A stretch of DNA of 64,000 bases, from NCBI GenBank assembly GCA_944390005.1, contig CALXOJ010000002.1, positions 186,001 to 250,000 on the forward strand, read 5' to 3'. Made by a program: the position numbers and the translations under genes. Origin of the DNA: an uncultured Spirochaetota bacterium (lineage in GTDB: Bacteria; Spirochaetota; Spirochaetia; JAFGXN01). The notes under the pieces are model-generated. The model ran no database searches, was not told where the DNA came from, and saw nothing but the letters and a program-made list of their open reading frames with translations. This document shows, piece by piece, positions 10,628 through 25,496 of the stretch. Position 1 is the first letter of the stretch. Every line of letters begins with the position of its first letter.

Positions 10628-12285
10628 GGCGGGAAGAGTGCGATGTGGCTGTCATCGGTGCGGGGCCGGCCGGATTGGCTGCTGCTACGGCGGCTGCGGA
10701 ACAAGGCGTTTCGGTTTGTGTATTTGAACGGGAAGAACAGGCCGGCGGAATTTTAAAACAGTGTATTCACGACGGGTTTGGTTTGATTCGTTACGGAGAA
10801 AAACTTTCTGGACCCGAATACGCATACCGCGAGCTTCAACGGTTTCAAAAAACCTCAGCCCGCCTGCGGTTAGAAACATTTATGACTTCAGTCGAAAAAG
10901 ACAGCGGCGGTTTTTTACTGACAATGATCGACCGCGAAGGAATTTTGAAATATCGGGTTAAGGCGATTGTTTCGGCGTGCGGCTGCCGGGAACGGACCGA
11001 TCGGCAGATTCGTCTTCAGGGTCCGCGTCCGGCAGGAATTTTCACTGCGGGACAGGCGCAGGCATATATTAATTTGAACGGAATCATGCCGGCGCGCCGT
11101 TGTGTGATTTTGGGGAGCGGTGATATCGGTTTGATTATGGCGCGGCGGTTGACACTTGAAGGAGCGGAGGTTGCCGGCGTTTATGAAATCAAGGCGGAGC
11201 CGGCCGGATTGAGCCGCAACATTGCGCAGTGTCTGACCGATTTTTCGATTCCTCTGCATTTAAGCCGCACCGTTACCGAAGTCGTCGGCCGCGATCGTTT
11301 GCAGGGCGTTTACACTGAAAAAGTCGACAGTCGCTTTTCTCCGATTCCCGGAACAAGAGAGTTTGTCGCCTGCGATACGCTGATTCTTTCCGTCGGATTG
11401 ATTCCCGAAAATGATGCGTTTGATTTGCTGAATTGGGAAAAAGATCCGATCACATCAGGTCCTCAAGTCGATTCTCGGGGGATGACTTCGGTTCCTGGTG
11501 TTTTTTCTTGCGGCAATTCGCTGCACGTTAACGATTTGGTTGATTATGTTTCTCAAAGCGGTGAAACGGCCGGAAACGCGGCGGCCGCTTACGTACGCGG
11601 AGACAGCGGTCGGCAAACCGTAACGGTGCACGCTGGGAACGGCATCGCTTCGCTTGTACCGCAAAGAACCGAAATCGAAAGCGGATCGGTTGATTTCTTT
11701 TTCCGCAGCCGCGAAACGCTGCGCGGACGCCGACTTTCGGTGACGGCGGACGGAAATGAGATTTTTTCATGCCGTTACGGGATCGTTAAGCCGCCGGAAA
11801 TGGAAAAAGTGACGATTGATACCGACGCGATTCCAAAAAATGCCGCCGCAATCCGTTTTGAGCTTCTTGAAGACCCGCAAGCGAATGCGGATTCTTCGGA
11901 AATCGATGAAGCCGACGAATTGGTTTGTATCGAATGTCCGCGCGGCTGCCGTTTGAGAATCGGCCGATCGATAGACGGATCGATTGAAGTCAAAGGCAAC
12001 AGCTGCCCGAAAGGAAAACGCTACGGCGAAGAGGAGATGAAAAATCCTCACCGCGTTTTAACGACATCGGTGAAAACGGTTTTTGCTCATCAACCGCGCT
12101 TGTCGGTTCGAACCAACGGCGGTATTCCGACGGCGGCGCTCTTTGACGCAATGAAAGCGGCAGCGGCGCTGACTGTCGACCGTGGGACCGTTCCCGGCGA
12201 TACGATTGTAAAAAATTTCGGCGGTTGGGGAGTTGATTTGATTGCGACCTCCGAATGCCGTCCTGAATCAAGGAGTGAAATATGA
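10624..12285 (+). CDS. FAD/NAD-dependent oxidoreductase fused to DUF1667
   Basis: A 553-residue protein. The first 400 residues are a pyridine-nucleotide-disulfide-type oxidoreductase: dinucleotide motif VIGAGPAGLAAA (residues 10-21), the early GGILKQCIHDGFG, a second nucleotide motif VILGSGDIGLIMA, and a late GVFSCGN. From about 430 on is a DUF1667 domain with CIECPRGCRL and NSCPKG, four cysteines fit to bind a metal cluster, ending near VKNFGGWGVD. In many bacteria these are two separate genes next to a glpA homologue, so here they are fused. It probably carries electrons between the GlpA-like subunit and NAD(P) or another carrier. Confidence 0.85.
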   Translation: MRREECDVAVIGAGPAGLAAATAAAEQGVSVCVFEREEQAGGILKQCIHDGFGLIRYGEKLSGPEYAYRELQRFQKTSARLRLETFMTSVEKDSGGFLLTMIDREGILKYRVKAIVSACGCRERTDRQIRLQGPRPAGIFTAGQAQAYINLNGIMPARRCVILGSGDIGLIMARRLTLEGAEVAGVYEIKAEPAGLSRNIAQCLTDFSIPLHLSRTVTEVVGRDRLQGVYTEKVDSRFSPIPGTREFVACDTLILSVGLIPENDAFDLLNWEKDPITSGPQVDSRGMTSVPGVFSCGNSLHVNDLVDYVSQSGETAGNAAAAYVRGDSGRQTVTVHAGNGIASLVPQRTEIESGSVDFFFRSRETLRGRRLSVTADGNEIFSCRYGIVKPPEMEKVTIDTDAIPKNAAAIRFELLEDPQANADSSEIDEADELVCIECPRGCRLRIGRSIDGSIEVKGNSCPKGKRYGEEEMKNPHRVLTTSVKTVFAHQPRLSVRTNGGIPTAALFDAMKAAAALTVDRGTVPGDTIVKNFGGWGVDLIATSECRPESRSEI

Positions 12286-14033
12286 GTCACAAGAAGAATG
12301 AATTTCAGCCGCCGTGGTCGGACGAAGCGCCGGAAGCGGGAAGCTACCGCTCTGTTTTCAAATGGGGAGATCCGAAAGGATTCAAACACCCCAATCGGAA
12401 ACTCTACCGTTATATGAAAGATCAATTCAATTTAACCGACGATGATTTTCGTGTACGGGTGAAAGAAGGGAGAGAAAAAGTCTCCGTTCCGACTCAGCCG
12501 CCTCTGTTGGATAAAAAGCACCGTGAAGCGCTGGCTGCCGTTGTCGGATCCGAAAATGTTGCCGATGACGATTACAGCCGCGTTTTTTATTCGACAGGAA
12601 AAACGCAGGAAGAAGCGTTTGAACTGCGTGACGGTGTTGTAAAAAAACTCGCTGATTTGATTGTCCATCCGAGAGATACGGAAGATGTTGCGGCTGTTGT
12701 CCGATACTGCGATAAACACCGCATTCCGCTCTACGTTTACGGCGGCGGTTCTTCTGTCAACTTCGGTTTTCGTCCGATGTTCGGCGGCGTCATGCTGGTT
12801 TTGAATACACACATGAATAAACTGCTTGAAGTCAATGAGCTGAACAAAACGGCTACGGTGCAGGCCGGAATGTTTGGACCCGCTTACGAAGAGGGGCTGA
12901 ATCACGCTTCGGAAAAATTCGGAACGAAGCGCAATTATACCAACGGACATTTTCCGCAGTCGTTTGAGTATTCCAGTGTCGGCGGTTGGGTCGTGACTCT
13001 CGGTTCAGGGCAGGAGTCTTCGTATTACGGCGATGCTTACGATTTGGTCATGGGGGTCGAAATGGTTTCGCCGCGCGGTGTTATTGAAACACACGTTTAC
13101 CCGGCGACAGCCACCGGTCCGAAGGTTCTCGACATGATTAAAGGCAGTGAAGGCACTTTCGGGGTTATTACCAAGCTGACAATGAAGATTTTTTATTTAA
13201 GCGACGAAACAAAATACGGAGCTTCTTACGTCTTTAAAGATTGGGAGACGGCTGTCACCGTTTGCCGTGAAATTTCCCAAGGCGAATTCGGATTTCCCGG
13301 CGTTTTGAGAATATCCGATGAAGAAGAAACCGATATGGGATTGCGCCTCTACGGTGTAGCGGGCACGCCGTTGGATACATTGATGCGCCTCTTCGGATTC
13401 AAGGAGATGAAACGGTGTCTGATGCTGGTTCGAACCTGCGGAGAAAAACACTTCTCCAAAAACGTACTGAAACAGGTCAAAAAAATCTGCCGCCGTCACG
13501 GAGGTCTGCCGCTGACTTCGTATCCGGTGAAAAAATGGGACCACGGCCGTTATTTGGATCCGTATCTGCGCGAAGACTTAAACGATTTCGGTATGGTGCT
13601 GGATACGACAGAGTGCGGTGTTACGTGGGATAATCTTCATAAAGTTCATCAAGAAGTTCGGCGTTTTGTTAAGAGCCGACCGCTCACCGGTTGTCTGGCG
13701 CATTCGTCGCACTTTTATCCCGAAGGCACGAATCTTTATTTTATTTTTTTCTGCAAAGTAAAAAACAGAGAAGATTACATCGAGCTGCAGAGCGGAATTT
13801 TTGAAGCGATTCAGCGGGCCGGCGGTTCGCTCTCTCATCACCACGGCGTCGGCCGCATGATTGCTCCTTGGATGGAGGAGCATCTCGGCAAAAACGAATT
13901 AGATGTTCTAAAAACGCTGAAAAATCACTTCGATCCAAACGGAATTATGAATCCCAGCGGTCAAATGGGATTGGATTACCGTCCCGGCGACTTAAAAGGG
14001 CGCGATTGGCGGGGAATTGCTTCGCAGTCTTGA
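12282..14033 (+). CDS. Alkyl-DHAP synthase-like FAD-linked oxidase
   Basis: A 583-residue PCMH-type flavoprotein. The FAD_binding_4 domain spans about residues 125-305: LIVHPRDTEDVAAVV, YGGGSSVN, then HFPQSFEYSSVGGWV and MIKGSEGTFGVIT, which closely match alkylglycerone-phosphate synthase (AGPS). The C-terminal SHHHGVGR and NHFDPNGIMNPSG also match, including the histidine cluster used by AGPS. AGPS makes alkyl-DHAP for ether lipids, while relatives oxidise hydroxyacids. Its place behind a GlpA-like enzyme, which would make DHAP, fits either role. It overlaps the previous gene by ATGA. No separate acyl-DHAP transferase is seen here. Confidence 0.85.
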   Translation: MSHKKNEFQPPWSDEAPEAGSYRSVFKWGDPKGFKHPNRKLYRYMKDQFNLTDDDFRVRVKEGREKVSVPTQPPLLDKKHREALAAVVGSENVADDDYSRVFYSTGKTQEEAFELRDGVVKKLADLIVHPRDTEDVAAVVRYCDKHRIPLYVYGGGSSVNFGFRPMFGGVMLVLNTHMNKLLEVNELNKTATVQAGMFGPAYEEGLNHASEKFGTKRNYTNGHFPQSFEYSSVGGWVVTLGSGQESSYYGDAYDLVMGVEMVSPRGVIETHVYPATATGPKVLDMIKGSEGTFGVITKLTMKIFYLSDETKYGASYVFKDWETAVTVCREISQGEFGFPGVLRISDEEETDMGLRLYGVAGTPLDTLMRLFGFKEMKRCLMLVRTCGEKHFSKNVLKQVKKICRRHGGLPLTSYPVKKWDHGRYLDPYLREDLNDFGMVLDTTECGVTWDNLHKVHQEVRRFVKSRPLTGCLAHSSHFYPEGTNLYFIFFCKVKNREDYIELQSGIFEAIQRAGGSLSHHHGVGRMIAPWMEEHLGKNELDVLKTLKNHFDPNGIMNPSGQMGLDYRPGDLKGRDWRGIASQS

Positions 14034-14389: not shown

Positions 14390-14416
14390 AGTGTAAACAT
14401 ATTGCCGGGAGTTGTT

Positions 14417-16579
14417 ATGAAATTCAAAGGTTTAGTTATTTTGTTTTTGTTGTTCTCTGCATTTCTTTTTGCTCAGGAAGTCACGGGAGAAGAAATGACC
14501 GGAGAAGAGGTCGTTGCCGAAGAGGCTGTTGAAGCTGAAGTTCCGGCGGATGCAGCGGTCGATTCCGAAGTTCCGCCGGAAGAGGTCGTTGAACAAGCGG
14601 CTGAAAATGAGGCTGAATCCGTTGTTGTTGAAGAAGAGCCGGAAGAAGAACAGATTTTCCGCACCTTTGAAGGCGAAAAAGCTTTAAAGAATGTCAAAGT
14701 TTACGAGAACCGTATCTACAAAGACGGTGCTCACGGAGTTTTCGGAAATTTTTTTGCAACTCCTGCCATTGCTTCGGAAATTAAAAAAGGTCTTGGAAAA
14801 ACAATTACAAATGAATCAGTTCTTGCTCTGATGGAGGAGTGGCGAGCTCGTGACGATTTTGAGTCTGTCGATTATTACTTTACATTCGATGAAAAAGATC
14901 GGGCGACTCTTCATGTGACTCTGATTGATAATCCTGGGTTTCAGGAATTTGAGGGAACAGTTACGTTCAATCGTATCAGTTTTTATTGCCGGAACAATTT
15001 TTTCGTTAACAGATCGTTGTTGAACGAAACATTGGCGTTGGAGAAAAAAAAGGAGTATACTCAGGCAGAAGTAGAAGAAGCTGTTGAGCGGATTTACAAA
15101 CTGTATGTTTTTAACGATATTTCGTGGGGTATTCGCGAAACCAAAACAGATAAAAACGGAAATAAATTTTATGCGTTTCAAATGATTTTATCGGAATATC
15201 CCGGCGATAAAATTCCCGAAGGTGAACAGATCACTGTGTCTAAAATTCAGTTTTTGGGTAATTGGTACACCAAAGATTGGGTTATGCTTCGGGAAATTGA
15301 TATTAAAGAAGGGGATGTTGTCGGAGTTCCTGAAATTGAATACGCTCGGCAGAGAATTCACAATTTGGGAATGTTCCGGGCTGTGGATTGGGGAGTTGTC
15401 TATGATGAGGAAGGCAACGCGATTCTGGTCTTCAATGTCAAGGATAATCTGACTATTCAGCCGTCGTTTGCATTTGCGGTTGGCAGTGACCGACTGCATT
15501 TGGGTATCGGCGTTTGGGATACAAACTTTTTGGGAACCAGTAGTTATCTGTGGACAATTTTTACTTTAAAAGATCTTATGCCGACTTTTGAATTCTCTCT
15601 TCGAATTCCGAAATTGAACAACAGTAATTTCGAATTGAGAACTTCTTTGAATTATTCATCGGAAAATAAATACACAGATTACCAGCGGATTGAAGAGGAA
15701 GGCGGCGCTTCTTATGATTTAAGACACAAAGGATACAGAGAAAATACCGTGACAGCTGCTTTCGGAGGTCTTTATCTGCTGCAGTTGGATGATAAAAACG
15801 AAAGGTTGTGGGAACAGCGTTTCGGTTTGATGTTCAATTATCAGTACATTTTTTCGAGGGAAGAAGAATTCCTTGGAATGCCGAGAGATTTTGCGGTTAA
15901 TTTCTTGAAGCTCTCCGAAGATTTTCAGTATGATGCAGAAAGAATCGGTGAAGGTCACTATGCGTCATTTGATTTTTCATATACATTCAATAACTTGAAG
16001 AAAATTGACTATCGGAAAACCGGTATTTCTTTTTCAGCTGTCAATACGGTCGGTTTCCCGTTCGGTCTGACCGGGTATATGAGCGACGGAATTACCGAAA
16101 AAGCGTTCAATACCTTTGATACTTGGTTCCGTTATTTCTATATTCCCGTTTCCTGGTTTGAATTTAGAGGGCAGTTAGCGACGGGTTATACAACGACTCA
16201 AATTCTTTCTCAGCAGTATTATTTCGGTTCTCGATCATTGGTCAGAAATATGCCGACCAATCGGCAGGGAAGCGGAAAGGCTTATTATAAGGGAAATTTC
16301 GACATTGCTTTTACACCGCCGATTCCGTATGTGAACAAAGTTCTTCAATTGGAAATCAGTTTATTCGGAGATATTGCTAATTACGGAAATGATTACAATC
16401 AGATATGGCGAGAAACTCCGCTATGGTCGGCCGGTTTCGGTATCATGATCTATATTCCGTTCTTTGGCGGTACTTTTGGATTGGAGACAGCGTGGGGTCC
16501 GAGCAACGTGGAAGGCAAAAACGGAACGCCTTACGTCAGTTTCGCTTTGACAAAATTCTACAACTACACAGACGATTAA
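14417..16579 (+). CDS. Omp85/BamA-family outer-membrane protein, paralogue 1
   Basis: 720 residues. The ATG at 14417 gives a good signal peptide ending FLFAQ, and GGGAG is 5 bases upstream. Residues about 21-80 are a Glu/Ala/Val-rich linker. POTRA-like modules follow (about 85-345): one ends LHVTLIDNPGF, another is ITVSKIQFLGNWYT to AILVFNVKDN. The rest is a barrel of amphipathic strands. Near the end, SRSLVRN stands where BamA proteins usually have an L-R-G-F loop motif, so it may not be the core insertase. At 720 residues it is shorter than treponemal BamA with five POTRAs. An intrinsic terminator follows, then a close paralogue. Confidence 0.82.
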   Translation: MKFKGLVILFLLFSAFLFAQEVTGEEMTGEEVVAEEAVEAEVPADAAVDSEVPPEEVVEQAAENEAESVVVEEEPEEEQIFRTFEGEKALKNVKVYENRIYKDGAHGVFGNFFATPAIASEIKKGLGKTITNESVLALMEEWRARDDFESVDYYFTFDEKDRATLHVTLIDNPGFQEFEGTVTFNRISFYCRNNFFVNRSLLNETLALEKKKEYTQAEVEEAVERIYKLYVFNDISWGIRETKTDKNGNKFYAFQMILSEYPGDKIPEGEQITVSKIQFLGNWYTKDWVMLREIDIKEGDVVGVPEIEYARQRIHNLGMFRAVDWGVVYDEEGNAILVFNVKDNLTIQPSFAFAVGSDRLHLGIGVWDTNFLGTSSYLWTIFTLKDLMPTFEFSLRIPKLNNSNFELRTSLNYSSENKYTDYQRIEEEGGASYDLRHKGYRENTVTAAFGGLYLLQLDDKNERLWEQRFGLMFNYQYIFSREEEFLGMPRDFAVNFLKLSEDFQYDAERIGEGHYASFDFSYTFNNLKKIDYRKTGISFSAVNTVGFPFGLTGYMSDGITEKAFNTFDTWFRYFYIPVSWFEFRGQLATGYTTTQILSQQYYFGSRSLVRNMPTNRQGSGKAYYKGNFDIAFTPPIPYVNKVLQLEISLFGDIANYGNDYNQIWRETPLWSAGFGIMIYIPFFGGTFGLETAWGPSNVEGKNGTPYVSFALTKFYNYTDD

Positions 16580-16633: not shown

Positions 16634-18814
16634 ATGAAGAAATCAATCATGATTGAATTATTCAGCAAAATTTCAACAAAAAAGATACAAACAGTACTGT
16701 TTTTGCTCTTTGCTCCTACAGTTTTATTTGCACAGGAAACGGATACTGGAGAGACGGAAGAAGCTCCGATTGCAGTGGAAATAACCGAAGATTCGGAAGG
16801 GGAACCGGAATTCGCGGCAGAGGAAGAAGGAGCAGAAACAATTCCGACGGTTGAAGTCGCCGCTCCGGAGGAGGAGCCGGCTGAAGAAGAAGCCATCCGT
16901 TCTTTTGACGGCGAAAAGACTTTAAAAGGCGTTAAAGTGTATGAAAACCGCATCTATTCCGATGCTCTGCGGGGAATTTTCGGAAATTACCTTGCCTCTT
17001 GGGTCATTGCCGGTGACATCAAAAAAGGATTGGGAAAGACCGTAACTCATGAAGCCGTTGTTGCATTTATGGAAGAACTGCGATCCAAAGACGAGATCGA
17101 ATCGATTGATTTTTATTACACTTTTGACGCTAAAGATCGAGTCATTATTCACGTCATTTTAATCGACAACCCCGGTTTTCAAGACTTCGAAGGGACAGTG
17201 ACGCTTGATCGAATTGATTTTTACTGTCGGAACAACTTTTTTGTCAACCGCCGCGTATTGAAAAAAACGGTGAATCTCGATAAAAAAGGGACATATACTG
17301 AAGATGAAATTAAAGCTGCCATCGAACGGATTAACGGATTATATGTTTTCAACGATATTTCTTGGGGATTAAGAGAAGAGAAAAAAGATAAAAACGGCAA
17401 CCCCGTTTATGCTTTACAAGTGATTCTGTCCGAGTACGGCGGAAGTAAAGAAGTCAGAAGTGACGAGCTTGTTATTTCCGATATTCGGTTTTTGGGCAAC
17501 TGGTATACGCAGGAGTGGGTTTATACCAGGGAATTGGGGTTTAAAGTCGGAGATACAGTCAATGTCAATCAGTTGGATGCCGCCGCGCAGCGGTTGATGA
17601 ATTTGGGCGTTTGTACGTTTGTTGATTGGGGCGTCATTTACACGAGTGAAGGCGATGTCATTTTGGTTTTTATTACCAGAGATAAACTGACGCTTTTGCC
17701 GCAGTTTGATTTCGCGTTCGGCAGCGACCAACTGCGTTTGGGGCTTGGTTTTTGGGATAAGAACTTTATCGGCACCAAATCAACGATCAACTTTAAATTC
17801 GTTTTAGTCGACTTGATGCCGACTTTCAGTTTGGCGTTCTCTGTTCCGAAAATTGCCAATACATATTTTAATTATGAAATGTCGATTAGTTATGACTCTT
17901 CAAACAAATACACTGAAACGAGAAAAGAGGGCGATGATGAAGTCCGGACCAAAGGTTATCGGGAAGATACCGTCAATACGTACGCCAAAGTCAGTTATTC
18001 ACTTGAGCTGCCCGATAAAAACCAGGTAATGTGGTACCAGACGTTTGCTGTGACGCTCGGATACGACTTTACACAGTCGCAGAACAACGGAGACTATCTC
18101 GGTATGCCGGCCGGATTTGCGACGGGATGGCTTCATTTGGCGGAAGATTTTACTTATGACGAAACGATGATCGGTCACGGTCATTACATGAACATCGATC
18201 TCGGATACAGTTTTAACAATAATCGCAGTGATGGCGGATACCGGACGAAAGGAATTTCTTTTGCAATTACCAACACCTTCGGTTTTCCGCTCGAATTGAC
18301 CGGATACATGAGCCGCAACCTAGAAGACAATTCTGAAATTACAGAAAAATTTTACAATACTATTGATGCCAATTTCACATTTCACTATATCCCTGTTCAG
18401 TGGTTTGAATTTAAAGGGTATTTGGGAACAGGATACACGACAACCGACATTATCACCCGACAAACGTATTTCGGCAGCCGTTCTCTGACACGGTGGGTTC
18501 CATACAATATGCAGGGAAGCGGTAAAGGATTCTATCGCGGTAACTTTGATATCTGCTTTACGCCGCTGATTCCATATATCAGCAAAGTGATTATCATTGA
18601 ATTCGATCTGTTCGGCGACATCGGTAATTACGGTAATTCGTATACGGAAATGTGGAAAGAGACCCCAATTTGGGCGACCGGTATCGGATTCAATGTTTAT
18701 GTGCCGTTTCTGGAAGGATTCTTTGTTTCCATCGATTTGGCATGGGGACCTGACAATGTTTCCGGAAAACACGGAAAACCGAAATTTAACTTTGGTGTCA
18801 GTAAATTTTATTGA
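16634..18814 (+). CDS. Omp85/BamA-family outer-membrane protein, paralogue 2
   Basis: 726 residues, collinear with the preceding protein over its whole length: acidic linker, GEKTLKGVKVYENRIYSD, LIDNPGFQDFEGTVT, FLGNWYTQEW, the barrel, and SRSLTRW near the end. The signal peptide core is PTVLFAQ after a longer basic N-region, so the ATG at 16649 is a possible alternative start. There is no clear ribosome-binding site, and the terminator hairpin lies directly upstream. The pair looks like a tandem duplication that has diverged. TetR follows 24 bases later. The close similarity to paralogue 1, including the loss of L-R-G-F, suggests a dedicated exporter or assembly factor. Confidence 0.8.
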   Translation: MKKSIMIELFSKISTKKIQTVLFLLFAPTVLFAQETDTGETEEAPIAVEITEDSEGEPEFAAEEEGAETIPTVEVAAPEEEPAEEEAIRSFDGEKTLKGVKVYENRIYSDALRGIFGNYLASWVIAGDIKKGLGKTVTHEAVVAFMEELRSKDEIESIDFYYTFDAKDRVIIHVILIDNPGFQDFEGTVTLDRIDFYCRNNFFVNRRVLKKTVNLDKKGTYTEDEIKAAIERINGLYVFNDISWGLREEKKDKNGNPVYALQVILSEYGGSKEVRSDELVISDIRFLGNWYTQEWVYTRELGFKVGDTVNVNQLDAAAQRLMNLGVCTFVDWGVIYTSEGDVILVFITRDKLTLLPQFDFAFGSDQLRLGLGFWDKNFIGTKSTINFKFVLVDLMPTFSLAFSVPKIANTYFNYEMSISYDSSNKYTETRKEGDDEVRTKGYREDTVNTYAKVSYSLELPDKNQVMWYQTFAVTLGYDFTQSQNNGDYLGMPAGFATGWLHLAEDFTYDETMIGHGHYMNIDLGYSFNNNRSDGGYRTKGISFAITNTFGFPLELTGYMSRNLEDNSEITEKFYNTIDANFTFHYIPVQWFEFKGYLGTGYTTTDIITRQTYFGSRSLTRWVPYNMQGSGKGFYRGNFDICFTPLIPYISKVIIIEFDLFGDIGNYGNSYTEMWKETPIWATGIGFNVYVPFLEGFFVSIDLAWGPDNVSGKHGKPKFNFGVSKFY

Positions 18815-18838
18815 AAGACCTTCCGGAAAGCTGTATTC

Positions 18839-19504
18839 ATGAACGAAGACGAAATTTTTTGTAAATCAACTTTTTTGCGGTTATCCGCAGAGAAGCAGAA
18901 AAAAATTCGCGATGCGGCCATTAAAATATTTGCAGAAAACGGTTATGCCAATGCCAAAATGAAAACGATCGCTGTTGCGGCGGGTATCAGCGTCGGTTCG
19001 CTTTATCAGTATTTTGATACGAAGGAAGAGATTTTCCTTGATACACTTCAAACTATGAAGCATGAACTGGAATCGGTGCTGATGCCGCTTCTTTCGGCGG
19101 AAGTACCCTTTTTAAATAAAATCGAGACCGTTTTGAGGACGCTGTATCGGTTTTCGTGCCGCCATCCTTATGTCAATAAAATTTATAATGAGATGACATC
19201 AGAGGGAAATTTTCCTCTCTCCATTCGAATTGCCCGTGAAATTGAAGGAATTTCGTCGTATTATTACCGCACTTTGATTGAAATTGCCAAGAGAGAAGAG
19301 AGACTTTCCGAAACGATTGATCCGGAAGTTTTTGCTTTCTGCCTTGATAATTTATTTATGATGATGCAATTTTCTTTTTCCTGCGAATATTATAAAAAAA
19401 GAAAAGAAATTTACTTAAAGGAAAAAGCAAAAGACGATGAATTTGTTTTGAATCAAACTTTAAGTTTTCTTAGAGGCGCTTTTTTCTTTACGGAAAAAGA
19501 TTAA
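18839..19504 (+). CDS. TetR-family transcriptional regulator
   Basis: 221 residues. The N-terminal HTH is clear (about residues 20-65): RDAAIKIFAENGYANAKM, then IAVAAGISVGSLYQYFDTKEE, the TetR recognition helix and following Phe/Asp. The C-terminal ligand domain is not similar to a named subfamily. It ends 26 bases before a 19-base inverted repeat lying over the promoter of the next operon, its most likely operator. It probably represses the aminotransferase-aldolase-flavoenzyme genes until a small ligand binds. Upstream spacing of 24 bases would allow cotranscription with the Omp85 pair. Confidence 0.93.
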   Translation: MNEDEIFCKSTFLRLSAEKQKKIRDAAIKIFAENGYANAKMKTIAVAAGISVGSLYQYFDTKEEIFLDTLQTMKHELESVLMPLLSAEVPFLNKIETVLRTLYRFSCRHPYVNKIYNEMTSEGNFPLSIRIAREIEGISSYYYRTLIEIAKREERLSETIDPEVFAFCLDNLFMMMQFSFSCEYYKKRKEIYLKEKAKDDEFVLNQTLSFLRGAFFFTEKD

Positions 19505-19509
19505 AAATC

Positions 19510-19538
19510 TTGCAAATAAAGGAATAGAGGTGTAAAAT
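19510..19538 (+). promoter_or_regulatory. Promoter of the PLP-enzyme/aldolase operon
   Basis: TTGCAA at 19510-19515, a 17-base spacer and TAAAAT at 19533-19538. The -10 box lies within the left arm of the palindrome at 19531, so a bound repressor would block it. Confidence 0.65.
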
Positions 19539-19574
19539 ATAAAAGTGAATTGCGGTTCATTTTTATATTTTACA
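19531..19574. promoter_or_regulatory. Long palindrome, probable TetR operator
   Basis: Arms of 19 bases (19531-19549 and 19556-19574) pair at 18 positions, with one G-T mismatch and the loop TTGCGG. The outer part reads TGTAAAATATAAAA. It spans the -10 region and the expected transcription start of the operon, directly downstream of tetR. It is not followed by a T-run, so a terminator role is less likely. Confidence 0.7.
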
Positions 19575-19590
19575 TTAGAGGAGAATGAAT

Positions 19591-21084
19591 ATGTCAAATC
19601 GGCCCGGTTATGCAATACAAGAGTATCATGATACTCAGAAAGTCATGGAACAGCTAAATGCACTTATTAAAATGCCGATCCGTGGAATTAAAAAAGAAGC
19701 AATGGAAAAATATTTGGACTATTACGAGACCAAGTGTCAAAAATCCAAAGAAATGATCCAAGAGGCGATGAATTACATTCCCGGCGGAGTTCAACATAAT
19801 TTGGCTTTTAATTATCCGTTTCCGTTGGTGATGACGAAAGCCGAAGGCGCCTATCTTTACGACATCGATGGAAACAAATACATTGATTTTTTGCAGGCGG
19901 GCGGACCGACCGTTTTGGGTTCTAATCCTCCGAAAATTCGGGAAAAGGTCAAAGAACTGCTGGATACGTGCGGTCCGGTGACCGGTTTGTTTCATGAATA
20001 TGAGCTGAAGCTTGCTAAATTGGTCTGTGCTACCTATCCCGGCGTGGAATTTTTCCGTGCCTTGAATTCCGGAACGGAAGCGTGTATGGCGGCGGCGCGC
20101 ATTGCCCGCTGTGCGACAGGACATAAAAACATTGTTAAAATGGGCGGTGCTTACCACGGCTGGTCAGATCAGCTTTCTTACGGATTGCGGGTTCCCGGAA
20201 GACGCAGTTTCGGGTCTCACGGAATTCCGAAAAACATTTTCAAGTACACGCAGGAATTTTTCCCGAACGATATTAAGTCTTTGAAACGGGTTTTGAGACG
20301 CAACGTGTTTCGCGGCGGAACAGCGGCCGTTTATATGGAGCCGGTCGGACCCGAAAGCGGAACGCGGCCGTTGGATTACGATTTCCCGAAGAAGGTTCAG
20401 GAGTTGTGCAAAAAATACGGTGCGCTTTTGATTTTTGACGAAGTCGTTACCGGGTTCCGATTGGGGCCCGACGGAGCGCAGGGTTATTTCGGCATCGTTC
20501 CGGATTTAACCGTTTTCGGAAAAGTCATTGCCGGCGGTTATCCGTCTGCGGGCGCCATTGCCGGTTTGAAAAAATGGCAGAAATATCTTGCCGGCGGTTT
20601 GGATACGAAAAAAGAAGGGGAGAAGAAAGTCCACAAGGCTCACGTCGGCGGTACGCTGGCGGCAAATCCGCTCTCTTCGTTGGCCGGCTATTATACTGTA
20701 AAGGAAATCATCGAAACCAATGCGTGTGAAAAAGCCGGTGCGATGGGAGACCGTCTGACGAAAGGATTGCAGGCTCTGATAAAGAAATACAATCTGCCGT
20801 TTGTTGCCTATAACCAGGGATCGATTTGTCACTTGGAAACGGTCGGAACCATGCTCTTTTCGATTAACCTGCTGAAATTCTGGCAGATTCCCCGTATTCT
20901 GAAAGAGACGACGGAGCGGCAGAAAATGATGCAGAAAATGGGAGCCGCTTATATGGCTGAAGGAATTGTAACGCTGGCGGGAAGCCGTATGTACACATCA
21001 GCCGCCGATACCGAAGAAATTATCGATGATGCTTTGGCTCGTTTTGAGAGGGTTTTTCAAAATATCGCTGAAGGTGAAGAATAA
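19591..21084 (+). CDS. Class III PLP aminotransferase, glutamate-1-semialdehyde aminomutase-like
   Basis: 497 residues from the ATG at 19591, chosen because AGAGGAG lies 8 bases upstream (the ATG at 19585 is too close). A 60-residue helical extension precedes the HemL-like core: PGGVQHNLAF, LYDIDGNKYIDF, SGTEACMAAARIAR, YHGWSDQ, IFDEVVTGFRLGPDGAQ, and FGKVIAGGYPSAGAI with the PLP lysine at about residue 310. Extra residues and an aldolase neighbour argue against haem synthesis. Members of this fold also act as omega-transaminases or amino-sugar/amino-acid mutases. It starts a four-gene operon. The exact reaction is unknown. Confidence 0.85.
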   Translation: MSNRPGYAIQEYHDTQKVMEQLNALIKMPIRGIKKEAMEKYLDYYETKCQKSKEMIQEAMNYIPGGVQHNLAFNYPFPLVMTKAEGAYLYDIDGNKYIDFLQAGGPTVLGSNPPKIREKVKELLDTCGPVTGLFHEYELKLAKLVCATYPGVEFFRALNSGTEACMAAARIARCATGHKNIVKMGGAYHGWSDQLSYGLRVPGRRSFGSHGIPKNIFKYTQEFFPNDIKSLKRVLRRNVFRGGTAAVYMEPVGPESGTRPLDYDFPKKVQELCKKYGALLIFDEVVTGFRLGPDGAQGYFGIVPDLTVFGKVIAGGYPSAGAIAGLKKWQKYLAGGLDTKKEGEKKVHKAHVGGTLAANPLSSLAGYYTVKEIIETNACEKAGAMGDRLTKGLQALIKKYNLPFVAYNQGSICHLETVGTMLFSINLLKFWQIPRILKETTERQKMMQKMGAAYMAEGIVTLAGSRMYTSAADTEEIIDDALARFERVFQNIAEGEE

Positions 21085-21099
21085 TCGAAGGAGTGAATC

Positions 21100-21735
21100 A
21101 TGACCGCAGAAGAGGCGCGGAAAATTGTTGTCGATGCCGGGATTCGTTTGGTCGGAGAGGGTTTGGTAGCCCGGACGTGGGGCAATATCAGTCAGCGGAT
21201 TGATGAAAAACACATTGCCATTACGCCGAGCGGCCGCCCGTACGAATTGCTGACCGCCGAAGATATTGCGATTTTGAATATTGAAGATATGAGTTGGGAA
21301 GGTCGTTATAAACCGTCAGGAGAGAGAAAACTCCATGCGGCTATTTATGCCGATGACATCAATGTAAAAGCGGTTATTCATACGCATCAAACGAACGCAT
21401 CCGTTTGCGCGGCTGCCCGAAAATCGATTGCGGTTCCGGAGACGTATCGATCGCTTTTAGGCGACGAAGTTTTGTGCGCTCCTTATGGTTTGCCGGGCTC
21501 TAAAAAGCTGACAAAAGGATCCGCCGCGGCGGTTAAAGGCCGTGCGGCAGCGTTTATGGCGAATCATGGCGCCGTTTGTATTGCCGCCACCATGGAACAA
21601 GCCTTTGAAAGAGCGGCAGCATTGGAAAAGGCGTGCGAAGAGGTGATTCGGGAGGCATTTTGCCGTCTTTACGACGTGCGGGAATGGAGTCCTGAAATCC
21701 TCCGCGAATACTATGTGAAGGATCAATGCGTATGA
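21100..21735 (+). CDS. Class II aldolase/adducin-family protein
   Basis: 211 residues, the size of L-fuculose-1-phosphate or L-ribulose-5-phosphate epimerase-type enzymes. The metal and catalytic pattern is intact: TPSGRPYEL, KPSGE with Glu75, the zinc histidines His94 and His96 in VIHTHQTN, and His156 in NHGAV. It should cleave or epimerise a phosphorylated sugar-like substrate by a zinc-stabilised enolate. A strong AAGGAG site lies upstream. It overlaps the next gene, an inactive-looking copy, by four bases (ATGA), so the two probably form a hetero-oligomer. Confidence 0.9.
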   Translation: MTAEEARKIVVDAGIRLVGEGLVARTWGNISQRIDEKHIAITPSGRPYELLTAEDIAILNIEDMSWEGRYKPSGERKLHAAIYADDINVKAVIHTHQTNASVCAAARKSIAVPETYRSLLGDEVLCAPYGLPGSKKLTKGSAAAVKGRAAAFMANHGAVCIAATMEQAFERAAALEKACEEVIREAFCRLYDVREWSPEILREYYVKDQCV

Positions 21736-22355
21736 AAGATGCGGTAAACGAAATCCGTAAGCTGGCCGAAAAAGGTGTGCTTGCCGAAAACAGTGCGGCG
21801 GCTTTCAGAAAAGACGGCGTCTGTTACGTCACTGTCAGAAACGCTGATTTGAAAAACCTGACAGAAACCGATTTGATTGTCGTTCGTGACGATTCCGATG
21901 TTTCTCCCGATGTCATGCCAAAAGAGTATTTTCTTTATTTAGCGATTTTTGAAATTTTCCCGAAGGTCAGTGCCATTATCAGAACATCCACCGAATCGAT
22001 TCGGACCGCGTCTATTGTCAACAGGAAAGTCAGACCGATGTTGGACGATATGGCGCAAATTGTCGGCGTTTCCGTCCGAAGCGTCGATGAAGATGTTTTT
22101 GAAAACGCTCAGAAAATCGTTAAAGCGACTTCCGCCATGAAAGACAGGACGGCGCTGCTGATTCAGAATAACGGGGCTGTTTGTGTCGGTGCAACATTCG
22201 ATGATGCGGAAGTATCGGCTGTTGTTTTTGAAAAGGCGTGCAAAACGGTCATTGAATCATCGTTTTTGGGCGGCGGCCGTTATATCAATCCGATTGAGTG
22301 TTGGTTAATGCATTTGGTTTATAAGCTGAAGTATTCAAAACAGGCGAAAAAATAA
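21732..22355 (+). CDS. Class II aldolase-like protein lacking zinc histidines (pseudoenzyme)
   Basis: 207 residues from the ATG at 21732 (a second ATG at 21726 is possible). Secondary-structure order matches the preceding aldolase, including VKAVIHTH-like IRTSTESI and NHGAV-like QNNGAVCVG. The zinc ligands are changed: the two histidines correspond to Arg84 and Ser86, and the third to Asn147. The glutamate (Glu65) remains. It therefore probably cannot bind the metal and may serve as a structural or regulatory partner. The C-terminus carries a distinct basic tail (HLVYKLKYSKQAKK). Confidence 0.85.
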   Translation: MKDAVNEIRKLAEKGVLAENSAAAFRKDGVCYVTVRNADLKNLTETDLIVVRDDSDVSPDVMPKEYFLYLAIFEIFPKVSAIIRTSTESIRTASIVNRKVRPMLDDMAQIVGVSVRSVDEDVFENAQKIVKATSAMKDRTALLIQNNGAVCVGATFDDAEVSAVVFEKACKTVIESSFLGGGRYINPIECWLMHLVYKLKYSKQAKK

Positions 22356-22406
22356 GGAAATCAGAAGATTCGCTTGCGGTTTTTACAAAGGGAGATCGGG
22401 AATTTA

Positions 22407-24476
22407 ATGAAGTACACGAAGTTGTTTGAACCTGGGAAAATTGGAACAGTTAAAATCGGCAATCGTGTTGTAATGACGGCGATGGAAGTTGATTTAGGGC
22501 GATTTGACGGAAAGGTCAGTCAGCGGTTGTCGGACTATTATTATGAACGGGCGCGCGGCGGAGTCGGTTTGATTATTACCGGCATTGCACGTGTCGATTC
22601 GTTTACAGGCGTCGGATCGCCGATGCAGCTTTCGGTTGCCAATTTTTCCACTGTACGATCGTTGCGGAAACTGACAAAACGGATTCATACGACGAATACA
22701 AAGATTTTCTGCCAAATTCACCATCCCGGGCGGCAGTCGTATTCGGCGGAGATGTACATTTGGCCCCTTATTGCGGCGGTTTCAAAAATTCCCGGATTCG
22801 GTCGGATTTTCGGACCGATGGTTTCGTTTTACCGAAAATGGATGAAACTGACGTTTGAACCGGCTGTTGTCAGCGCTTCAGCTGTCAAGTGCACTCATGT
22901 CAATCAAAAAGTGCGGGCACTGAAGACATTTGAAGTCAGACGGCTGGTGAAAAAATTTATCCGCGGCGCTCAGCGCGTTCAAGCGGCCGGATTCGATGGC
23001 GTTGAAATTCATGCAGCGCACGGGTACTTGATTCAACAGTTTCTTTCGCCGCGTACAAATAAACGGACGGATGAGTACGGAGGGTCGTTTGAAAATCGTT
23101 TCCGGTTTCTGAAAGAAATTATCGAAGGAGTGAGAAATGCTTGCGGAAAAGATTTTCCCATTTCGCTTCGGTTATCGGTCGACGAATTTTACCGTGATGC
23201 AGAGGGAGACGAACAGGGCATTACTCTGCCAATGGGCATAAAAATCGCCGAAGCGGCGGCTGCGTTGGGAATAGATGCGTTGAATGTCTCCTCGGCGACA
23301 TACGAAACCATCAATGATTGGTTGGAACCGATTACTTATGAACCGGGATGGCGTGCGTATTTGGCTAAGGCTGTCAAAGAAAAGGTTTCGGTTCCCGTTA
23401 TCGCTGCCAATTTGATTCGCTCTGCGGAACAGGCAGAAAAGCAGCTGGAGGAAGGAATTCAGGATTTTATCGGAATGGGCCGACCGTTTCTGTGTGATCC
23501 TGAATTGGTGCAAAAAATTTCCGAAGAACGCGAAGAGGAAATTGTTTCTTGTATCGGATGCCTTTATTGTTTTGAATCGCTTCTTGCCGGAGCTTGGAAA
23601 GGAAAACCGCTGGAGTGTGCCCGCAATCCCGTTTTGGGGCAAGAACAGATCCTTCGGGAAATGCCAAAAGACGGAGCCGGGCGCCGTGTCGTCGTTATCG
23701 GTGCCGGTCCTGCCGGACTGACAGCGGCGTATTATGCGGCGCTGCGCGGTTTTGATGTTGATGTGTATGAAAAAGAAGCCGAGTCCGGCGGACAGGTTCT
23801 TTTAGCGGAGAAGCCGGATGGAAAGCTGCGGCTGGGAGATTGTATTCGGGAAGATTATCGCAGATGTCTCTCTCTCGGTGTACGATTCCATTTTAATCAA
23901 GAAGCGGATGCCGAATCCGTTTTAAAAACCGATCCGGAACGTGTGATTGTCGCTGTCGGATCTCAACCGTTTTTGCCTCCGATTAAAGGAAGAGAGAAAT
24001 CGAACTGTTACAGTGTCGAAACCGTTTTAAACGGCGGTGTTTCATTCCGAAATAAAACGGTTTCGGTTATCGGTTCCGGATTGACGGGGTTGGAAACCGC
24101 CGCGTTTTTGGCTGAGCGCGGCAATCGCGTCATTGTCATCGAAATGTGCGATGAAATTGCTCCGGGGGCTTACATTCAGAATGTTGAAGATGCGCTTGCA
24201 CGATTGAAGAAGCATAAAGCGCAGGTGATGGTTTCCCGAAAATTGGAGGAAATTAAAGAAAATTCCGTTGAAGTGACGGATTTAAAAGAAAACAAACGCG
24301 AAGAAATTGCCTGCGATGCGGTTGTTTTGGCAGTCGGAAACAGAAGCCGCCGCGAACTGTATGAGGAACTCAAAAGACGCGGCGTGAAGAAGTTATTCTT
24401 GATCGGTGACGCCGTTCGTCCCGGAAAAATTGCTGACGCCGTCCGCACCGGTTATCGGGCAGCTGTCGAGAAATAA
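22407..24476 (+). CDS. 2,4-dienoyl-CoA reductase-like NADH:flavin oxidoreductase
   Basis: 689 residues from the ATG at 22407. It has the three-part FadH/BaiCD layout: an OYE-type FMN TIM barrel (residues 1-370; GFDGVEIHAAHGYLIQQFLSP and NKRTDEYGGSFENR), a cysteine cluster (about 383-410), then FAD and NAD domains (VVVIGAGPAGLTAAYYAA, VSVIGSGLTGLETAAFLA, and a late LFLIGDAVRPG). It should reduce an activated C=C bond, using NAD(P)H via flavins and a 4Fe-4S cluster. Cysteine spacing, CIGCLYC then 15 residues then C, differs from E. coli FadH (CxxCxxxCx11C). It closes the TetR operon and meets rlmN with no gap. Confidence 0.9.
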   Translation: MKYTKLFEPGKIGTVKIGNRVVMTAMEVDLGRFDGKVSQRLSDYYYERARGGVGLIITGIARVDSFTGVGSPMQLSVANFSTVRSLRKLTKRIHTTNTKIFCQIHHPGRQSYSAEMYIWPLIAAVSKIPGFGRIFGPMVSFYRKWMKLTFEPAVVSASAVKCTHVNQKVRALKTFEVRRLVKKFIRGAQRVQAAGFDGVEIHAAHGYLIQQFLSPRTNKRTDEYGGSFENRFRFLKEIIEGVRNACGKDFPISLRLSVDEFYRDAEGDEQGITLPMGIKIAEAAAALGIDALNVSSATYETINDWLEPITYEPGWRAYLAKAVKEKVSVPVIAANLIRSAEQAEKQLEEGIQDFIGMGRPFLCDPELVQKISEEREEEIVSCIGCLYCFESLLAGAWKGKPLECARNPVLGQEQILREMPKDGAGRRVVVIGAGPAGLTAAYYAALRGFDVDVYEKEAESGGQVLLAEKPDGKLRLGDCIREDYRRCLSLGVRFHFNQEADAESVLKTDPERVIVAVGSQPFLPPIKGREKSNCYSVETVLNGGVSFRNKTVSVIGSGLTGLETAAFLAERGNRVIVIEMCDEIAPGAYIQNVEDALARLKKHKAQVMVSRKLEEIKENSVEVTDLKENKREEIACDAVVLAVGNRSRRELYEELKRRGVKKLFLIGDAVRPGKIADAVRTGYRAAVEK

Positions 24477-25496
24477 TTACTTTTCGGAGTCTTTTCCGGC
24501 CAGTTGTCCGCATGCGCCTTCAATGTCGCGGCCGCGGCTGCGACGTAACGTCATGTTGATTCCGTTATCGGCAGCTGCCTGTAAAAAACGGTGGACGCGG
24601 TTATTGGACGGGCTTTTAAACGATAAATTCGGAGTCGGATTCCATGGAATCAAATTGACTAACGGAGTGTGAAAGCCGTTTAAAAAACGGCATAAAGCGG
24701 TTAAATCACCGATAGAGTCGTTAAATTCGTCGATTAAAACGTATTCGAATGTAATGCGCCGTCCGACAGCATCCTGATAGTGAAGCAAAGCATCTTTCAA
24801 CTCTTCGAGAGGATATTTAAGAGTGATCGGCATCAGTTGTGCTCGTTTTTTGTTGTCGGCTGCATTGAGGGAGACCGCCAATTTCATCGGCATTTTTTCT
24901 TCAGCCATCCGTAGGATTCCCGGTACAACGCCGCAAGTCGATATTGTGATTTTTCGTTTGCTGAAGTGACAGCACTCCGGGGAGGAAAGAATTTCGACTG
25001 CTTTTACCACTTCGTCAAGATTGTTCAGCGGTTCTCCCATTCCCATAAAAACAATGTGGCTGATGGGTCCGCTCTTTTGGCGAAGGAGAATCATTTCTTC
25101 GACAATTTCTGCTGCCGACAGATTGCGTTTAAGACCACCGAGCGCGGTGTGACAGAAGCGGCACCCCATTGCGCATCCGACCTGGGTTGACAGACACGCC
25201 GTTTTGCGTCCCTTGTCGGTTGTTAAAACGACAGCCTCAATAACGGCTCCATCAGGAAATCGCAGCGTTCGTTTTACGGTTCCGTCGGCGGAAACCCGTT
25301 CCCTCAAAAGTTCCGAAGAAAAGAATGTTCCGTTTGCCTTTAAAGTCTCTCTCAGTGTTTTAGGCAGATCCGACATTTCATCAAAATTCATGATCCCCGA
25401 ATAGAGATTTTTAAAAAGCTGTTTTGCGCGGAACGGAGGAGAGAGAGACCACTCATCCGCCAGCTCTTTCGGCGTTTTCCCGATAAGAGAAATCAT
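24477..25496 (-). CDS. rlmN: 23S rRNA (adenine2503-C2) and tRNA methyltransferase
   Basis: 339 residues. This radical SAM enzyme methylates C2 of A2503 in 23S rRNA and A37 of some tRNAs. The cluster motif CAMGCRFC follows STQVGC. SHIVFMGMGEP and the catalytic cysteine in FACRFLNG-type regions fit, and TLRRSRGRDIEGACGQL, with the conserved C-terminal cysteine, closes the protein. It starts four bases inside the end of the TPR gene and ends the minus-strand ilvE operon. Its stop adjoins the stop of the flavoenzyme gene. Confidence 0.95.
   Translation of the reverse strand: MISLIGKTPKELADEWSLSPPFRAKQLFKNLYSGIMNFDEMSDLPKTLRETLKANGTFFSSELLRERVSADGTVKRTLRFPDGAVIEAVVLTTDKGRKTACLSTQVGCAMGCRFCHTALGGLKRNLSAAEIVEEMILLRQKSGPISHIVFMGMGEPLNNLDEVVKAVEILSSPECCHFSKRKITISTCGVVPGILRMAEEKMPMKLAVSLNAADNKKRAQLMPITLKYPLEELKDALLHYQDAVGRRITFEYVLIDEFNDSIGDLTALCRFLNGFHTPLVNLIPWNPTPNLSFKSPSNNRVHRFLQAAADNGINMTLRRSRGRDIEGACGQLAGKDSEK

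Follow-up and report, generated by a model that had tools for sequence, protein, structure and literature searches.

What does a long and nearly perfect palindrome do when it lies between a tetR-family gene and the class-III aminotransferase gene that follows it on the same strand? We analyzed this question in a 64,000-nucleotide stretch of DNA, referred to here as the window, from an uncultured Spirochaetota bacterium, and compared the locus with those of its relatives. Judging from the sequences of these loci, the center of the palindrome is very probably the operator of the TetR protein encoded just upstream, which would repress the aminotransferase operon until a ligand releases it. See Table 1 for the coordinates of all features.

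Table 1. Features of the tetR-aminotransferase locus, in window coordinates
Feature	Position	Strand	Basis and remarks
tetR-family regulator gene, 221 aa	18839..19504	+	Pfam TetR_N (PF00440), 56 bits, cut-off 24
-35 hexamer TTGCAA	19510..19515	+	Promoter scan; kept in sister genome G001
44-bp palindrome	19531..19574	none	Arms 19531-19549 and 19556-19574, loop 19550-19555
-10 hexamer TAAAAT, within left arm	19533..19538	+	Promoter scan; kept in sister genome G001
Predicted operator core AAGTGA-ATTGCGGT-TCATTT	19543..19562	none	Half-sites 19545-19548 and 19557-19560; shared motif, weight matrix
Ribosome-binding site AGAGGAG	19577..19583	+	Read from sequence; 2 bases 3' of palindrome; AGGAG kept in sister genome G001
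Class-III (glutamate-1-semialdehyde-type) aminotransferase, operon gene 1	19591..21084	+	
Class II aldolase/adducin-type gene 1, probable operon member	21100..21735	+	Pfam Aldolase_II
Class II aldolase/adducin-type gene 2, probable operon member	21726..22355	+	Pfam Aldolase_II
NADH:flavin oxidoreductase (Old Yellow Enzyme type), probable last operon member	22374..24476	+	

The palindrome and the genes around it

The palindrome is beyond chance. An inverted-repeat search of the window recovered the structure that an earlier note on this DNA had described, with 19-nt arms that are complementary at 18 of 19 positions around a 6-nt loop, and the end of tetR does lie 26 bases before it. Arms of 19 nt with at most one mismatch and a loop of at most 10 nt occur at this single place in the 64-kb window and in none of 60 whole-window shuffles. 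Even an arm of 16 nt was reached in only 3 of 5,000 shuffles of the local AT-rich stretch around the palindrome. A pattern search with TGTAAAAT-N10..30-ATTTTACA found one place in the 1.95-Mb genome.

The upstream gene encodes a TetR-family regulator, with a TetR_N helix-turn-helix domain that passes the Pfam cut-off. Its product is likely the repressor that binds the predicted operator. Directly upstream of tetR lie tandem POTRA-containing outer-membrane (BamA-like) proteins (14402-16579 and 16634-18814) that are about 53% identical. In the sister genome (G001, to which locus L054 appears to belong), which is the sole other genome of the genus compared, matches were seen to one BamA-like gene only, versus two in the window.

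Downstream of the palindrome, the ATG at 19591 is a likelier start for the aminotransferase than the ATG at 19585, because the sister genome lacks the latter. The operon appears to run from the aminotransferase through two aldolase-type genes to a flavoprotein. The first aldolase gene occurs together with the aminotransferase in 76 and the second in 74 of the 84 loci listed, own genus included, and the flavin oxidoreductase was matched only in this genus among the locus stretches listed. Two relatives' loci add an FGGY-family sugar kinase, and one of them also has an aldehyde dehydrogenase. In two Firmicutes relatives examined, the aldolase pair of the window (21100-22355) corresponds to one longer protein (L068:5466-6656 and L078:5512-6738), and two Aldolase_II stretches were matched in the longer protein of L068.

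A predicted promoter reaches into the left arm

The promoter TTGCAA-N17-TAAAAT named in the earlier note is present, with its -10 box inside the left arm, and it would start transcription near 19545. By sequence alone it is unremarkable, as it matches at 9 of 12 positions and four such sites occur in 18600-20000, where shuffles have a mean of 3.4. The promoter is nonetheless credible because the sister genome keeps CTTGCAA, TGTAAAATAT, and a spacer of 17 bp, although many of the letters within that spacer differ. This pattern supports a working promoter at the predicted site. Most of the palindrome center is kept in the same alignment.

A motif shared across related loci

Relatives for the locus comparison were the best 80 of 200 from a contig search, together with 394 genomes sampled from a class with more members. 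Loci with a TetR homologue beside the aminotransferase were found in Firmicutes-type bacteria and in other members of the window's class. We collected 33 intergenic regions in which a TetR match (E <= 1e-25) is found no more than 700 bp upstream of an aminotransferase match, the latter with more than 50% identity and beginning at residue 20 or earlier. The set takes in the window (L002) and the sister locus, and L001 and L003 were dropped as duplicates. The tetR gene is divergent from the aminotransferase gene in 26 of the 33 and co-directional in 7.

The exact motif GTGA-N8-TCAC is present in 29 of the 33 regions (mean 0.07, maximum 1 in 200 shuffles). The relaxed form RTGA-N8-TCAY is present in 32, including the window (mean 0.89, maximum 4 in 200 shuffles), and is unspecific when taken alone, with 9 places in the window. 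When spacers of 0 to 20 were tried with the exact form, only N4 (15 regions), N8 (29), and N12 (5) exceeded one region, and the N4 and N12 counts arise from overlapping GTGA repeats. Three loci have the relaxed form only, namely the window, where the right half-site is TCAT, the sister locus, and L068. One tetR-aminotransferase pair, L073 of Fusibacter ferrireducens, is without even the relaxed motif. These loci are related and not independent: the TetR proteins fall into 11 clusters at 60% identity, of which 9 have the exact and 10 the relaxed motif, and into only 4 clusters by single linkage at 50% identity, of which 3 have the exact and all 4 the relaxed motif.

The motif is common to loci with a homologous regulator and tracks the presence of that regulator, the window and its sister having the relaxed form only. 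Among 86 aminotransferase loci outside the genus, a set from which loci with fewer than 120 bases upstream were left out, the exact motif lies within 400 bp upstream of the aminotransferase in 32 of 34 loci that contain such a TetR versus 11 of 52 in whose stretch none lies (Fisher p = 1e-11). Across the class, the exact motif is present at 16 of the 29 loci that encode close TetR relatives, a group that partly overlaps with the 33 regions above, and at none of the 21 with distant TetRs. The 13 close TetR loci in which the exact motif is absent include L033, L035, and L038, at 38-40% identity.

Some loci have the motif and no adjacent regulator. In genome G002, of the same family, the aminotransferase carries the motif and the 4.5-kb locus has no tetR, with TetR homologues on other contigs. 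A GGTGAA-type version of the motif occurs in the aminotransferase loci L082, L085-L087, L092, L095, L096, L100, and L111, with no TetR homologue in the stretch, and the regulator for these loci may lie elsewhere. A second GTGA-N8-TCAC site overlaps the first at a 4-bp offset in L063, L071, L078, and L133, and also in L004, L040-L042, L044, L047, L049, and L051.

The recognition helix of the TetR protein reads SLYQYF in this genus, and most motif-bearing relatives have K for Q (YKYF or FKYF). The Q may go with the change of a half-site from GTGA to ATGA. In L007, which shares the Q with the window, no relaxed motif was found in its stretch.

The position of the motif relative to the promoter is also shared. 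In 25 of 32 regions, the distance from the end of a -10 box to the motif center downstream of it is 12-20 bp, against a mean of 1.9 and a maximum of 7 regions for random centers (2,000 trials), and in the window this distance is 14 bp. Five of the 32 regions have no promoter match near the motif. The usual geometry is therefore a promoter followed by an operator over the start site.

The predicted operator and its action

The earlier note had proposed a TetR operator on the grounds of position and symmetry. The comparison supports this reading, as GTGA-N8-TCAC is frequent at the loci of the TetR subfamily, lies just downstream of the -10 box, and recurs in relaxed form at the palindrome center. 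The extent of the operator had been drawn too wide: the central ~20 bp are conserved, and the whole 44-bp palindrome is not.

We infer that binding, repression, and induction by a ligand would proceed as follows. A TetR dimer would bind the half-sites GTGA and TCAT (= ATGA) across the 8-bp spacer and would cover roughly +1 to +16 of the TTGCAA-N17-TAAAAT promoter. Occupancy of the start site would sterically keep the aminotransferase-aldolase-aldolase-flavoprotein operon from being transcribed. TetR would then leave the site on binding a ligand, probably one of the pathway's substrates or intermediates.

Weight matrix and search for further sites

A weight matrix was built from exact sites only, 32 in number, all from loci outside the window's own genus. 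Its best score in the 64-kb window falls at 19541-19564, with 14.2 compared to 7.6 for the second-best place and 13.0-27.4 for the training sites. The site of the sister genome scores 6.85, which is below every training site, yet it is the best in its own 9.5-kb locus (next -0.49). Outside the core, the matrix positions are only weakly informative.

None of the eight best matrix matches in the window lies near the start of tetR, and tetR starts 24 bases past the end of the preceding gene. Therefore, TetR probably does not repress its own gene directly here, unlike what the divergent arrangement suggests for the relatives.

The earlier note had advised searching the genome for the same palindrome to find further targets, and this returned the known site alone. 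A genome-wide search for a further operator with AAGTGAATTNCGGTTCACTT, allowing up to three mismatches, likewise gave the known site only. With AAGTGA-N8-TCACTT and at most one mismatch, the genome yielded the known site and one asymmetric place on contig C9, and the reversed-pattern control also gave two. A stricter consensus had no matches genome-wide and missed the window site itself, which differs at one inner position. We also considered as a target an exact GTGA-N8-TCAC at 12275-12290, next to the 5' end of an FAD-linked oxidase gene, and rejected it. The sister genome does not keep it, and simple arithmetic predicts roughly one match to these 8 bases per 64 kb, so it probably arose by chance. 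A search of viral contigs found no relative of the TetR.

The sister genome and the outer arms

A further point against the operator reading is that the arms extend far past the motif and are not needed by an operator. These AT-rich outer arms lie outside the shared motif and were seen in this genus only, in two genomes; in other loci, the palindrome that surrounds the motif never exceeds 13 nt per arm. In the sister genome, a TetR ortholog with 81% identity is followed by a matching palindrome with arms that agree at 17 of 18 positions. An extra base has entered each arm, and at the outer ends two pairs present in the window are lost. The gained bases are A and C, which do not pair, and the outer arms stand 2 bp further apart.

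DNA identity between the window and the sister locus is about 80-92% at 16757-19718, 86-96% at 19719-20918, and 99-100% downstream (20919-25100). This profile suggests that recombination took place here recently, with its breakpoint near 20900.

The long arms may be a by-product, in which a template switch reverse-copied the -10 region across a pre-existing short operator and only the core is functional. We regard this as a serious possibility, at slightly under an even chance; it bears on the arms alone and does not conflict with the operator reading. The outer 14 bases of both arms are exact reverse complements, which makes the right arm a copy of the -10 region, and in relatives the core occurs with no such long arms. 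Template switching has been reported to create and repair palindrome arms of this kind (PMC8794818). However, the arms are present in both genomes compared within the genus, with no armless state among them. Furthermore, the sister arms are imperfect copies, with one A-C mismatch and two outer pairs lost, and give no support there for upkeep by repeated switching.

It is unlikely that a protein-binding DNA site spans all 44 bp, with two TetR dimers sitting on it in the manner of QacR or a different symmetric regulator occupying the outer arms. The overlapping sites 4 bp apart in L063, L071, L078, and L133 are suggestive of paired dimers, and binding as a dimer of dimers has been described for QacR-type regulators (PMC6449355). 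The same source describes QacR and the FadR of Sulfolobus acidocaldarius as placing two dimers on overlapping repeats, to which the 4-bp-offset sites of some relatives are similar. Unlike these systems, the window core has a single N8 site and not two overlapping pairs of half-sites, and the matrix gives little weight to anything outside it. The outer-arm distance also changes by 2 bp in the sister genome, which a rigid site would hardly tolerate and which argues against a rigid extended site.

Two further readings give the full palindrome a role in RNA. In one, which we consider quite improbable, the palindrome has two jobs: the center is a DNA operator, and the full length acts as an RNA hairpin only in messages that read through from tetR. 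If this were true, the read-through mRNA would be shut off or processed while the repressor gates the proper promoter. The other holds that the palindrome is mainly an RNA hairpin in the tetR read-through mRNA, affecting the stability, processing, or translation of the aminotransferase message, and we consider it very improbable. The RNA fold is stable (-23 kcal/mol, z -5.4, with none of 200 shuffles as stable), and just 2 bases lie between its stem and the ribosome-binding site. A comparison for compensating changes, which covers two genomes only, is mixed. The base gained in each arm of the sister genome keeps the remaining pairs in register, but the A and C stay unpaired, two outer pairs are lost, and no pair clearly compensates. 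This imperfect pairing argues against a strongly kept hairpin. Moreover, RNA from the predicted start near 19545 would be without most of the left arm and would fold otherwise, and the long arms are known from two genomes only. Rfam had no matches in the window at its gathering threshold, which leaves no known structured RNA there. The earlier note had named conservation of the palindrome only as an RNA hairpin, with compensatory changes, as grounds against its operator reading. The relatives instead share the central motif as DNA with a fixed 8-bp spacing and shorter arms, and the sole paired change in the arms is the non-pairing A/C.

An intrinsic terminator for tetR is scarcely credible, as the earlier note had already doubted: the hairpin does lie directly 3' of the gene end, but its stem is almost all A-T and not G+C-rich, no T-run follows, the terminator scan does not report it, and it overlaps a promoter that is kept in the sister genome.

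Comparison with known systems and implications

The preferred reading, a TetR operator at the palindrome center, makes the site another example of a well-known kind of TetR operator. The inverted repeat lies close to the regulator gene and overlaps a promoter, here a predicted one. The same layout, a palindromic operator beside the regulator gene that overlaps the promoter of the neighboring enzyme gene, is described for TetR, QacR, and TetR-family pairs generally (PMC3511530). Unlike the classical divergent arrangement of TetR, the tetR gene of the window precedes its target co-directionally, and the "200 bp rule" given in that source concerns divergent neighbors (PMC3511530).

The best NCBIfam match of the window TetR is the fatty-acid regulator FadR of Bacillus (NF053878), at 46 bits over residues 18-76, the DNA-binding part. 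The family cut-off is 200 bits, and we rejected an identity with Bacillus FadR. The operator of Bacillus FadR is likewise a TGA...TCA inverted repeat. Unlike the case of Bacillus FadR, the neighbors here are an aminotransferase and aldolases and not beta-oxidation genes. A limited literature search, with broad queries swamped by unrelated work, found no description of a motif for this TetR subfamily or of the gene cluster.

For the TetR subfamily that accompanies the conserved aminotransferase/aldolase cluster in Spirochaetes and Firmicutes, the comparison yields a predicted operator motif: AAGTGA-N8-TCACTT, in which the half-sites read GTGA or ATGA. Such a motif would make the regulon predictable in many genomes. 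It would also offer a handle on the inducer and hence on the role of the pathway.
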